The notes: a model not told the origin generated them from the sequence alone. A DNA stretch of 64,000 nucleotides from Thermoplasmatota archaeon (GCA_023381415.1 JAMCUN010000007.1:1-64000), one strand, 5' to 3'. Positions 49,103 through 53,216 are shown, counted from the first letter of the stretch. Program-made: numbers and translations.

Positions 49103-50188
49103 ATGTCAACTGATAATGCTTTCAACTCCATTGATTCAATAGAATTCTACGTTGGTTCTGCAAGACAGTGGGCGTATTTCCACGAGAAAGCGATGGGGTT
49201 CAGGATTATAGGTTATTCCGGGCCTGAAACTGGGGTAAGGGACAGATGCTCATACCTTATGGAACAAGGGGACATCAGGTTGATATTCACCGGATTCCTA
49301 TCAAGGGCCTCAGAGATTTCCAGGCAGGTAGAACTTCACGGTGATGGAGTGAAGGATGTGTCTATAGACGTGAACAACCTGGACGACACCCTCTCGTTCA
49401 TCAGGGATAACGGAGTTGTCAAGCCAGGGCAGATCCAAAAGACGAAGGGGGAAGGAGGGACTCTGTACAGCACAGAGCTGAAAACATTCGGGGAGACAGT
49501 TCACTCTCTGAAGGACTACGGAGAATGGGACTCGGACCTTCCGCCCGGATTTGTTGAAGTTGAATCTGGGGAAAGAAAGATTGTAGTGAGGAAGGTGGAC
49601 CATGTCGTGGGGAATGTCGAGGAGAATAAGATGGATCCCTGGGTGAACTTCTACGTTAAGGGGCTGGGTTTCAGGCAACTTTTGAGTTTTGATGACAAGG
49701 ACATAAGCACTAAGTACTCTGCGCTCAAGAGCAAGGTGGTAGAATATGGCGGACGGAAGATAGTTTTCCCCATAAACGAACCTGCGCTAGGTCTCAAGAA
49801 ATCACAGATCCAGGAGTACCTGGATTACTATGAGTCCCCCGGGGTGCAGCATATCGCTCTTTCTACAGACAACATCGTGGAAACTGTCAGAAAGCTGAAA
49901 CGGAACGGGATACAGTTCCTGGAGACTCCCGGCACTTACTATGACGAACTTGAGGACAGGGTTGGGAAGATAGACGAGGACATGGATGCACTGAGGGAAT
50001 TGAATATCCTCGTGGACAGGGACGATGACGGTTATCTCCTGCAGATATTCACCAAACCGATAGGAGACCGACCAACGTTCTTCTACGAGATAATCCAGAG
50101 AAAGGGTGCAACCTCGTTTGGAAAGGGAAATTTCAAGGCACTATTCGAGAGCATTGAGAAGGAACAGGAGAAGAGAGGAAACCTCTAG
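49103..50188 (+). CDS. hpd: 4-Hydroxyphenylpyruvate dioxygenase
   Basis: The 361-residue enzyme has two VOC halves. The iron ligands are H167 (VDHVVGN), H250 (QHIALSTDN) and E329 (FYEIIQR), and the C-terminal RKGATSFGKGNFKALFESIE is the HPPD signature. It converts 4-hydroxyphenylpyruvate to homogentisate with O2, the second step of tyrosine breakdown. It is the first gene of a four-gene operon, followed after 2 bases by the FAH-family gene. Confidence 0.94.
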   Translation: MSTDNAFNSIDSIEFYVGSARQWAYFHEKAMGFRIIGYSGPETGVRDRCSYLMEQGDIRLIFTGFLSRASEISRQVELHGDGVKDVSIDVNNLDDTLSFIRDNGVVKPGQIQKTKGEGGTLYSTELKTFGETVHSLKDYGEWDSDLPPGFVEVESGERKIVVRKVDHVVGNVEENKMDPWVNFYVKGLGFRQLLSFDDKDISTKYSALKSKVVEYGGRKIVFPINEPALGLKKSQIQEYLDYYESPGVQHIALSTDNIVETVRKLKRNGIQFLETPGTYYDELEDRVGKIDEDMDALRELNILVDRDDDGYLLQIFTKPIGDRPTFFYEIIQRKGATSFGKGNFKALFESIEKEQEKRGNL

Positions 50189-50190
50189 TC

Positions 50191-51054
50191 ATGAAAATCG
50201 CTAGGATCGAAACTGACGGTAAGATACGGAATGCAGTCCTCACGGGGGAAGAGGAGTTCCTACCGATAGATGAATCGATAAACTTCTACGACATCAAAGA
50301 AACCAATCCAGAGGCACATGAGGATAAGCTCCAGAAGTTCGGGCCGAGCGACCTCAGGGTACCCCTCCCGGAAGTGAAGTCCATAAGGGATTTCTACGCA
50401 TTCGAGGATCATGTGAGGAAGGCTAGGGCCAGGAGGGGGCTGGAAATGGTCCAGGAATGGTACGATGTCCCGGCATATTACTACTCCGGCACCTCCATGC
50501 TTTATCCTTCAGGTTCTCAGATTCCACATCCTTCATTTTCAGCAGAGCTAGACTATGAGATGGAGGTGGCAGTCGTGATAGGGAAGGGGGGAATGAACAT
50601 TCGGAGGGAGGAAGCGTTCTCCCACATTCTTGGATTCATGCTTGCAAACGACTGGTCTGCCCGCGACATCCAGAGGAAGGAGATGAAGATCGGCCTTGGT
50701 CCATCGAAATCTAAAGATTTTGCTACCAGCCTGGGTCCTTACATCACCACAACGGACGATCTGGAGGAATTCAGGGAAACAGGGGACAGGTTTGACATGC
50801 CTGTGGAGGCATACGTGAACGGGAAGAGGTATTCCTCAGGAAACGTCAGGGATATGCACTGGTCTTTTTCGGAGCTGATTGAATATGCATCAAATGGGAC
50901 AATGCTGAGGGAAGGGGACGTGATAATGTCGGGCACAGTATCAACGGGATGCATACTGGAACTTGGACCTGAGGAGCATGGCTGGTTGAAGAAGGGAGAT
51001 AATGTATCAATAAGGAGCCCGGCACTCGGTGAGTTGACAAATGAGGTAATTTGA
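50191..51054 (+). CDS. Fumarylacetoacetate hydrolase-family protein
   Basis: The 287-residue protein carries the FAH fold and metal site: DYEMEVAVVIGKGG with the acidic metal ligands, GFMLANDWSARDIQR with Asp, LGPSKSKDFATSLGP and MLREGDVIMSGTVSTG. In the tyrosine pathway FAH splits fumarylacetoacetate into fumarate and acetoacetate. Here it may use fumaryl-, maleyl- or succinylacetoacetate, because no isomerase gene is present. It begins 2 bases after hpd and ends at the base before hmgA. Confidence 0.87.
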   Translation: MKIARIETDGKIRNAVLTGEEEFLPIDESINFYDIKETNPEAHEDKLQKFGPSDLRVPLPEVKSIRDFYAFEDHVRKARARRGLEMVQEWYDVPAYYYSGTSMLYPSGSQIPHPSFSAELDYEMEVAVVIGKGGMNIRREEAFSHILGFMLANDWSARDIQRKEMKIGLGPSKSKDFATSLGPYITTTDDLEEFRETGDRFDMPVEAYVNGKRYSSGNVRDMHWSFSELIEYASNGTMLREGDVIMSGTVSTGCILELGPEEHGWLKKGDNVSIRSPALGELTNEVI

Positions 51055-52194
51055 ATGGTTTACTATGTTAGGCAAGGCAGGATGCCCAGAACAAGGCACA
51101 CATACGAAAGCAGGAATAAATTGCTCAGAGAGGAACTATTTGGGGAGGAGAGCTTCGACGGCTCCTATTCTTTGCTGTACCACAGGAACGAGCCGACTAG
51201 GATCAAGTCTATCAGGGAAGCTAGGAAGGATGAGCCGAAATTTGAAACCCTGAAACTGCACAAGATGATAGATACGGACATACAGAAAAGGCAGGGGAAT
51301 TTCATCAACGGAAGGAAACCGCTGTTCGGCAACGAAACGCTGCACATATTGATTTTGAAACCATCCAGTCGCACGAGTGACCTTTTCAGACATGGGATCA
51401 GGGATCAGCTCTTCTTTGTGCATAGGGGTGACGGGAAATTCAAGACCATTATGGGAGAACTGCCATTCGGAGAGGGGGATTATATCTACGTGCCGAAGGG
51501 GACGATCTACAATCTTGAGCATTCCGAGGATGCTGAATTCCTGCTGATAGAGTCAAGGGACAATATATCTGTACCGCAGAGATATCTGAACAGGTACGGT
51601 CAGATAAAGGAGGGAGTGCCGTATTATTCAAGGGACTTCCGTCATCCTGTGCTGCGGAGGGGGAGGGAAGTGAAGAAAAATTGTGAGGTGTACGTGGATT
51701 TCGACGACAGGTATGTTGTTGAAACCAGGGACGACAGCCCGTTTGACCTAGAAGGTTGGGACGGCTACCATTTTCCGTTCGCTATAAACATCAGAGACAT
51801 TATGCCCATAGTGGGGAAGGTGCATCAGCCTCCACCCGTCCATGAGACGTTCTCTTCGAAGTCGTTTATGGTAGGTACGTTCCTGCCAAGAAAGTATGAC
51901 TTCCACGAGAGGGCAATTCCAATATCATATTACCACAGCAATGTCGACACGGATGAATTCCTCTACTATGCCTCTGGGAATTTCATGAGCAGGAAGGGCA
52001 TCAGGGAAGGGTCAATCACAATCCACGTCAGGGGGATGATCCACGGTCCTCAACCAGGAACTGTCGAGAAGTCACTGGGAAAGGAAGAGACGGACGAAAC
52101 AGGCATAATGGTCGAAAGTTATGAGAGGCTTGGCATATCGGAAGAAGGGAAAAGGTTAGAAAACAAAAATTACATGAAGACATGGTATGAATGA
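51055..52194 (+). CDS. hmgA: Homogentisate 1,2-dioxygenase
   Basis: The 379-residue cupin enzyme opens the ring of homogentisate to maleylacetoacetate. The iron ligands are H294 and E301 in YYHSNVDTDEF and H330 in MIHGPQPG; GDYIYVPKGTIYNLE is a cupin strand pair. It is shorter than animal HGD (445) and matches the prokaryotic form. Its stop overlaps the next start (ATGA), so the pair is translationally coupled. Confidence 0.9.
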   Translation: MVYYVRQGRMPRTRHTYESRNKLLREELFGEESFDGSYSLLYHRNEPTRIKSIREARKDEPKFETLKLHKMIDTDIQKRQGNFINGRKPLFGNETLHILILKPSSRTSDLFRHGIRDQLFFVHRGDGKFKTIMGELPFGEGDYIYVPKGTIYNLEHSEDAEFLLIESRDNISVPQRYLNRYGQIKEGVPYYSRDFRHPVLRRGREVKKNCEVYVDFDDRYVVETRDDSPFDLEGWDGYHFPFAINIRDIMPIVGKVHQPPPVHETFSSKSFMVGTFLPRKYDFHERAIPISYYHSNVDTDEFLYYASGNFMSRKGIREGSITIHVRGMIHGPQPGTVEKSLGKEETDETGIMVESYERLGISEEGKRLENKNYMKTWYE

Positions 52195-53216
52195 TGCAGT
52201 TTAATTTTCTGCCAATAGACATGGTATCAGTAGGAGAGAAGTCAATAGAGGAGATATCGGCACTGATCGGAAAGGATGACCTTAAGGATTCAGCGATAGT
52301 GACAAGCAGGTCAGTGGCCGGAAATGATTTCTTCAGGAGGGCTGTGGAAATGCTAGGAGACCCGAGGGTCTTCAGCGGCATATCGCAGCACTCCCCAATC
52401 GAGGAGATAGACTCAATCGCAGGGGAGATCAAGGGAAAGAATGTGAAGTACCTTATTTCAATTGGAGGTGGCAGCGTCATAGACTCTACCAAGGTGATAA
52501 GGTCAAAGACGGACACGGAGATAAAGCAGATAGCAGTTCCCACAACACTCTCCGCATCTGAATTCTCCCATATAGCTGGGTATACCGAAAACGGCGAGAA
52601 GAAGGGTATCAGGGGGAAGGAGCTGACACCAAGATACATCTTCCTGGATCCTAATGCGACACTTGAAACGCCAACAACGCTCTGGAGGTCTAGCGGAATA
52701 AGGGCGATCGATCACGCTATTGAAGGAACGCTGGGGGAGGGGATGGTCGACTTGAGGGTGGCCTTCTCCAGGCTTTCAGTTGAAAAGATGATGGCTAATC
52801 TTGAAGGGAACTGGACGGACAGGAGGCTTGAATGCCAGGTCGCCTCTTGGTATTCTTACATGGATGTCTATGACAGCCCCATGGGATACAGCCACAGGAT
52901 AGGGAAGATCATCGGTGCCAGGTGGAACATACCGCACGGGATGACATCGTGCATGACCCTTCCTGAGATATTGAGGTACTATTCTGCATCCCCTCCGCCT
53001 GGAATGGCGAAACTGGCATCCTCCATCACGGGAGAAGGGGATGGGTCAAAAGCAATTGAATCCCTTGCAGCCAGACTGGACTCATTCATCCAGGAACTTG
53101 GCTTAAAGAAGAGGTTCTCGGATTATGGAATGAAGGAGGAGGACCTGAAATATATCGAGGACAAGCTTGGAAGCGCAGATGACTTGCTCATAGACCATCT
53201 CCGGAATATGCTCTGA
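52191..53216 (+). CDS. Iron-dependent alcohol dehydrogenase family, maleylacetate-reductase-like
   Basis: The 341-residue product is a group III (iron) dehydrogenase of the maleylacetate reductase type: YLISIGGGSVIDSTKVI (dinucleotide loop), AVPTTLSASEFSHIAGY, IRAIDHAIEG and SHRIGKIIGARWNIPHGMTSC with the metal histidines. Maleylacetate reductases reduce a C=C bond next to a keto group with NAD(P)H. The gene is coupled to hmgA by a four-base overlap. No maleylacetoacetate isomerase is present, so reduction of maleylacetoacetate to succinylacetoacetate is a plausible step; this is inferred. Confidence 0.8.
   Translation: MMQFNFLPIDMVSVGEKSIEEISALIGKDDLKDSAIVTSRSVAGNDFFRRAVEMLGDPRVFSGISQHSPIEEIDSIAGEIKGKNVKYLISIGGGSVIDSTKVIRSKTDTEIKQIAVPTTLSASEFSHIAGYTENGEKKGIRGKELTPRYIFLDPNATLETPTTLWRSSGIRAIDHAIEGTLGEGMVDLRVAFSRLSVEKMMANLEGNWTDRRLECQVASWYSYMDVYDSPMGYSHRIGKIIGARWNIPHGMTSCMTLPEILRYYSASPPPGMAKLASSITGEGDGSKAIESLAARLDSFIQELGLKKRFSDYGMKEEDLKYIEDKLGSADDLLIDHLRNML

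Follow-up and report, generated by a model that had tools for sequence, protein, structure and literature searches.

Degradation of tyrosine through homogentisate is classically carried out by four enzymes, namely 4-hydroxyphenylpyruvate dioxygenase (HPD), homogentisate 1,2-dioxygenase (HGD), maleylacetoacetate isomerase (MaiA/GSTZ1) and fumarylacetoacetase (FAH). The literature on Bacillus anthracis openly states a gap in this scheme, in the form of a missing isomerase (PMC4457819). The other relevant group of described enzymes is that of the maleylacetate reductases (MARs), in which a metal-free subfamily has the metal-binding aspartate replaced by asparagine or arginine (PMC5125639), and which are typified by PcpE, with His172 and Lys238 as the two residues essential for catalysis and LSTPEQ as the NADH motif of the family (PMC5741723). 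Here we describe an operon at positions 49103-53216 of a 64,000-nucleotide stretch of DNA from a Thermoplasmatota archaeon (GCA_023381415.1, JAMCUN010000007.1:1-64000; hereafter the window), which has an HPD, an HGD and an FAH-type hydrolase in common with the classical pathway and encodes as its fourth product a MAR-like protein with the fold of the iron-containing alcohol dehydrogenases (Fe-ADHs). With modest confidence, and from sequence analysis, we read it as a tyrosine-degradation operon of archaea devoid of glutathione with a built-in reductase, which would take maleylacetoacetate to succinylacetoacetate and thence to succinate and acetoacetate.

The four-gene operon and its products

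The host of the operon is a metagenome-assembled genome of the Thermoplasmatales, of 1.42 Mb in 32 contigs and 81% complete. The genome 'Thermoplasmatales archaeon A_EUR_01' appears to belong to the same genus, as it gave a match equal to that of G142. The four genes, all on the + strand, and the junction between the last two are as follows:

49103..50188, + strand: hpd, 4-hydroxyphenylpyruvate dioxygenase (4-hydroxyphenylpyruvate to homogentisate), 361 aa; from TIGR01263 and 1T47
50191..51054, + strand: FAH-type C-C hydrolase, a short form without the N-terminal domain, 287 aa; from PF01557 and residues compared with mouse FAH
51055..52194, + strand: short-type homogentisate 1,2-dioxygenase (hmgA/HGD), 379 aa; from PF20510 and 1EY2
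52191..53216, + strand: MAR-like reductase of Fe-ADH fold (proposed maleylacetoacetate reductase), 341 aa; from PF00465, 9PH0 and an AlphaFold model
52191..52194, + strand: ATGA, in which the HGD stop codon is overlapped by the reductase start; from the sequence, with a junction overlap in 37/39 Thermoplasmatales loci

A gap of 2 bases separates hpd from the hydrolase gene, the latter abuts HGD with 0 bases between them, and HGD shares the 4-base ATGA with the reductase gene, in agreement with the four genes and spacings given by a first-pass annotation of the window. Scans for promoters and terminators returned matches no more frequent than in shuffled sequences. The arrangement is not a chance one, because the core trio keeps its order in essentially all Thermoplasmatales HGD loci with enough sequence, and all four genes stand in this order in a second phylum of archaea as well.

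With 380.7 bits for TIGR01263 (cut-off 277), the HPD is an unambiguous equivalog, recognizable as a member of the classical pathway; 1T47 is its best solved relative (E 2e-102). The hydrolase falls within the FAH superfamily (PF01557, 179.9 bits) and below the cut-off of the fumarylacetoacetase equivalog (TIGR01266, 84.1 bits against 375.3). Its residues D67, H74, E123, E125, D154, R158, K175 and E257 lie in columns at least 95% conserved in the archaeal set (family f25, described below, excluded). From alignments to solved FAHs, we take these to be the metal and catalytic positions of mouse FAH, and this conservation of the aligned residues identifies the protein as a predicted FAH-like C-C hydrolase. 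The dioxygenase matches HgmA_N (PF20510, 29.0 bits, cut-off 20.2) but lies far below the HGD equivalog (TIGR01015, 55.8 bits against 510.75), and is for this reason classified by sequence as a divergent short HGD. Its alignment with human HGD (1EY2, E 3e-8) spans the iron-ligand region and points to H294, E301 and H330 as putative iron ligands.

The fourth protein belongs to the Fe-ADH family (PF00465, 80.1 bits, with PF25137 matched too) and has the corresponding fold. Among solved structures, it is most closely matched by 9PH0, whose deposited name is 'MAR1' (E 2e-37 with the single sequence, 6e-68 with a profile), followed by GraC (3W5S) and HxqD (3JZD). The nearest folds to its AlphaFold model (predicted local distance difference test score 92.5) are those of MARs (3HL0, 3W5S, 3JZD) and other Fe-ADHs, and the two groups were not separable in this fold search. 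At the position of the metal-binding aspartate of alcohol dehydrogenases the protein has Arg171, an arginine found in 14/14 aligned orthologs, and H175, which matches PcpE His172 by alignment, is invariant among them; H235 and H249, aligned with two more basic pocket residues of PcpE, are likewise kept. In place of the LSTPEQ motif, residues 37-42 read VTSRSV. K239 sits at the position of PcpE His241, where a lysine or arginine occurs in 20/20 HGD-linked rows as against 3/37 HGD-unlinked relatives of the Arg/Lys type, which we read as a possible specificity mark for a longer, C8 substrate. At the residues tested, the protein resembles a MAR, but it departs from part of the bacterial MAR definition and falls in a separate clade.

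At the place of the reductase in G182 (genus g72; L105:4339-5376) lies a gene with an open frame and 25% identity, a decayed or repurposed copy. In G144, a genome of the window's genus with no HGD, a more distant MAR-like protein (L285:5185-6360) is found amid genes that are MmgE/PrpD-like, CoA-transferase-like and acyl-CoA-synthetase-like by sequence only; hence the wider MAR-like clade appears to serve other pathways.

Phyletic patterns and the search for an isomerase

Distribution within the order was assessed in a sample of 117 Thermoplasmatales genomes, among which 51 reach a completeness of 90% or more, with a strong reductase ortholog defined by E below 1e-70 and with the neighbourhoods of nearly all HGD matches of the order examined. 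HGD is present in 72 of the 117 genomes. A strong reductase ortholog occurs in 42/117, comprising 42/72 HGD-positive and 0/45 HGD-negative genomes (Fisher p 3e-12, which is only a guide as the genomes are related). The order hpd-fah-HGD is essentially invariant in those HGD loci with enough sequence, and in 39 analysed loci the reductase gene comes immediately downstream of HGD, with an overlap of 4-16 bases in 37 of them. One genome of genus g74 (G191) carries two hpd-fah-HGD operons (L093 and L094), one with the reductase and one without it, and so offers a natural comparison of the two versions. In many Thermoplasmatales the operon is adjoined by a gene for an iron-containing redox enzyme of about 230 aa with a haem-oxygenase-like fold (PF14518; L140:2982-3677, L109:2868-3587, L016:5762-6457 and others). 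Two members of the window's family have this gene upstream and codirectional with the operon, elsewhere it is mostly convergent, and the window's genus does not have it there.

Outside the order, a scan of named genomes recovered one four-gene locus, in the soil thermoproteote Crenarchaeota archaeon 13_1_40CM_3_52_17 (L149). Among the 257 genomes of its class, HGD is found in 19, and a reductase ortholog (E below 1e-140) in 17/19 HGD-positive genomes and 0/238 others. These 17 members have hpd-fah-HGD-reductase-proline dehydrogenase clusters, of which that in G240 is rearranged and another is truncated by the end of its contig; every reductase copy of the class adjoins pathway genes where the contig allows. 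The two HGD-positive genomes without the reductase are G233, where HGD is represented by a fragment of 27 residues at the end of a contig, and G241, in which HGD and proline dehydrogenase are now adjacent and the locus retains none of hpd, fah and the reductase. A third lineage is represented by one genome of another Thermoplasmatota class (G519), in which a reductase gene of this type comes after HGD. This recurrence across lineages implies that HGD and the reductase travelled together over large distances.

The proline dehydrogenase that follows the reductase in the soil Thermoproteota (L149:7163-8014 and relatives) suggests a general amino-acid-degradation cluster. A different arrangement is seen in class-level relatives of family f25 (L024:6570-11464, L025:6398-11331, L026:6635-11611), in which HGD is followed by a gene of about 228 aa and then by FAH, with LeuCD/aconitase-type genes adjoining HGD. 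The product of the intervening gene has no Pfam match and a weak orotate-phosphoribosyltransferase-like match in the PDB (E 0.41). This arrangement could be another isomerase-free solution, for instance direct hydrolysis combined with a maleate hydratase.

Across the 117 Thermoplasmatales genomes, profile searches at E 0.01, in which positive controls matched, recovered no MaiA (TIGR01262), no GST_N_3 (PF13417, the general glutathione S-transferase N-terminal domain) and no MDMPI_N (PF11716, the mycothiol-dependent isomerase domain), and the MaiA profile was also without a match in G222. Given that the window's own genome is incomplete, the absence of an isomerase rests on its relatives. The first-pass annotation had described the operon as lacking an isomerase and had named such a gene elsewhere in the genome as grounds for giving up its reading; the profiles of the known families bear out the former and give no sign of the latter. 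The known isomerase families are thus excluded, a result that does not extend to an unrecognized family.

A proposed reductive route and its competitors

Taking the family assignments together, HPD would make homogentisate, and HGD would open its ring to give maleylacetoacetate. The MAR-like reductase, predicted to be metal-independent, would then use NAD(P)H as the hydride donor to reduce the activated cis double bond of maleylacetoacetate, yielding succinylacetoacetate in a step that parallels the action of maleylacetate reductase on maleylacetate. FAH enzymes accept several 3,5-dioxo acids, and the FAH-type enzyme of the operon would split succinylacetoacetate into succinate and acetoacetate, so that neither a cis-trans isomerase nor a thiol cofactor would be needed. 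Probably the hydrolase also takes the unreduced acyl group, which would explain the lineages that lost the reductase. The reductive reading is the most economical one, because the chemistry is that of the MARs, carried out on the homologous bond of a larger product of ring cleavage. There is good support for a reductase dedicated to homogentisate breakdown. Somewhat better than evenly balanced, in our judgement of the genomic evidence, is the fuller proposal of a reductive homogentisate variant, in which a 'maleylacetoacetate reductase' would replace the thiol-dependent isomerase in archaea without glutathione that belong to two or more phyla. What the computation shows is the order of the genes and its conservation, their co-occurrence and family assignments, the residue pattern and the absence of known isomerases; the reactions of the last two steps are inferred. 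Succinylacetoacetate does occur in nature, being excreted by patients with tyrosinaemia type I (PMC2802351); in the literature searched there was no named maleylacetoacetate reductase and nothing direct on archaeal homogentisate degradation.

Several observations weigh against this proposal. The reductase is missing from about 30 HGD-positive genomes of the order (genera g3, g4, g70, g73, g75, g77, g80 and g82), several of which are complete or almost complete, and these keep hpd-fah-HGD. The reductase therefore cannot be indispensable, and the reduction step is either dispensable or made up for by something not visible to us. Its presence or absence changes at least 5 times on the HPD+HGD tree, and at least 4 sister clades retain the trio with neither the reductase nor a visible replacement. 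The hydrolase is nearly unchanged between operons with and without the reductase, M86 to V/I being the only recurrent difference (4/5 groups, a weak signal), so that no clear switch in its substrate is visible. In the reductase itself, PcpE Lys238 and the signature LHHKLCHTLGG are not conserved; the window protein reads SHRIGKIIG at that stretch, the Lys238 position is R, Q, A, S or N in its orthologs, and 9PH0 is also without the lysine. The gene at the reductase's place in G182 has lost the catalytic histidine, the arginine and the PHG motif (SSGLSVMDYTFS). Finally, no paper behind the name 'MAR1' of 9PH0 was found in the literature searched.

Should the base of the tree have carried the reductase, as the soil-archaeal outgroup does, repeated losses must have followed. 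Candidates for a replacement gene in the reductase-less operons were an aminotransferase (by sequence) and NUDIX, PCC-domain and Haem_oxygenas_2 neighbours; none is an obvious isomerase, and none tracks the absence of the reductase. In these lineages, either the hydrolase acts without prior reduction, or an unrecognized or non-enzymatic isomerization takes place. The bypass that the first-pass annotation had proposed is retained in part: an HGD-linked reductase on the MAR side (Arg171, His175) and an FAH-type hydrolase with its catalytic residues are consistent with it, whereas its statement that the need to isomerize is removed is not the whole story, given the clades that manage without the reductase.

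The most serious rival, to which we assign a minor but real share of the probability, holds that the hydrolase takes maleylacetoacetate itself, with maleate and acetoacetate as the products, or acts on spontaneously formed fumarylacetoacetate, with the reductase as an accessory that relieves reactive maleylacetoacetate or is redox-conditional. The core trio indeed works without the reductase in several clades, with little change in the hydrolase, and the hpd-fah-hmgA operon of B. anthracis is also without an isomerase gene, some Bacillus being reported to hydrolyse maleylacetoacetate directly (PMC4457819). However, the long-term, near-exclusive linkage and translational overlap of the reductase with HGD in two phyla exceed the expectation for an optional helper, and no maleate-consuming enzyme is visible in these operons. 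The least credible of the explanations is a hydrolytic release of maleate, followed by its reduction to succinate by the fourth enzyme. This would also yield succinate and spare the isomerase, but it is a chemical possibility only: maleate is without the 3-oxo group that stabilizes hydride addition, and, to our knowledge, no enzyme of the Fe-ADH fold reduces an unactivated dicarboxylate, which we count against it.

It is unlikely, though less so than the maleate-reduction scheme, that a thiol-independent maleylacetoacetate isomerase of an unrecognized kind is encoded elsewhere and feeds an ordinary fumarate pathway, with the reductase serving a different enone or keto acid from the degradation of tyrosine or phenylalanine. 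The known families are excluded by profile search only, and small genes of the PCC-domain and iron-containing redox-enzyme families do recur near the operon; yet most of these neighbours lie on the opposite strand, the window's genus does not share them and they do not track the absence of the reductase, and the reductase-like proteins outside HGD loci form distinct clades with other residues at position 239. That the fourth gene encodes an ordinary iron-dependent alcohol, glycerol or lactaldehyde dehydrogenase, linked by chance or as a housekeeping gene, is very improbable. The fold is a common one and general Fe-ADH models match the protein, but the metal-binding aspartate is uniformly replaced by arginine, none of the 15 NCBIfam models listed (0/15) comes near its cut-off, and the linkage to HGD is near-exclusive. 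An enzyme acting only on simple alcohols or glycerol was the other outcome that the first-pass annotation held to be fatal to its reading, and, within the reach of sequence analysis, the missing metal ligand argues against such an enzyme.

Relationship to known systems

The archaeal operon is unlike the classical homogentisate pathway in having no isomerase of a known family across the 117 genomes, an added reductase, and short forms of both HGD and FAH. The hpd-hmgB-hmgA operon of B. anthracis (BAS0226-0228) shares the hpd-fah-hmgA arrangement, and no gene for an isomerase was found there either; no reductase is mentioned for it, and direct hydrolysis of maleylacetoacetate was suggested from earlier Bacillus work (PMC4457819). 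More generally, there is no known maleylacetoacetate isomerase for organisms that have HGD and FAH and are devoid of glutathione, and a dedicated reductase is one testable answer for the archaea among them. If the proposal is correct, the product would be succinate instead of fumarate, and succinylacetoacetate, the tyrosinaemia I product, would become a normal intermediate.

The MARs of hydroxyquinol and chlorophenol pathways (GraC, PcpE, MacA; cd08177) share with the window reductase the Fe-ADH fold and the essential histidine, and in both the metal-binding aspartate is replaced, by asparagine in GraC and HxqD and by arginine in the window reductase. Both are also encoded beside a ring-cleavage dioxygenase that gives a cis 3-oxo-enoate-type acid, the bacterial MARs being linked to hydroxyquinol cleavage and the window reductase to that of homogentisate. 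With about 20-23% identity by fold alignment and without Lys238 or LHHKLCHTLGG, the latter belongs to a separate clade from the bacterial MARs. The same Arg-type signature (TGMRAVDHAVE, PTTLSAAE, QHSP) is shared by the window reductase and 9PH0 'MAR1', for which we know of no linkage with homogentisate genes. If the reductive route holds, it would provide the first function for the HGD-linked, Arg-type, MAR-like clade, which general models name only 'iron-containing alcohol dehydrogenase'.

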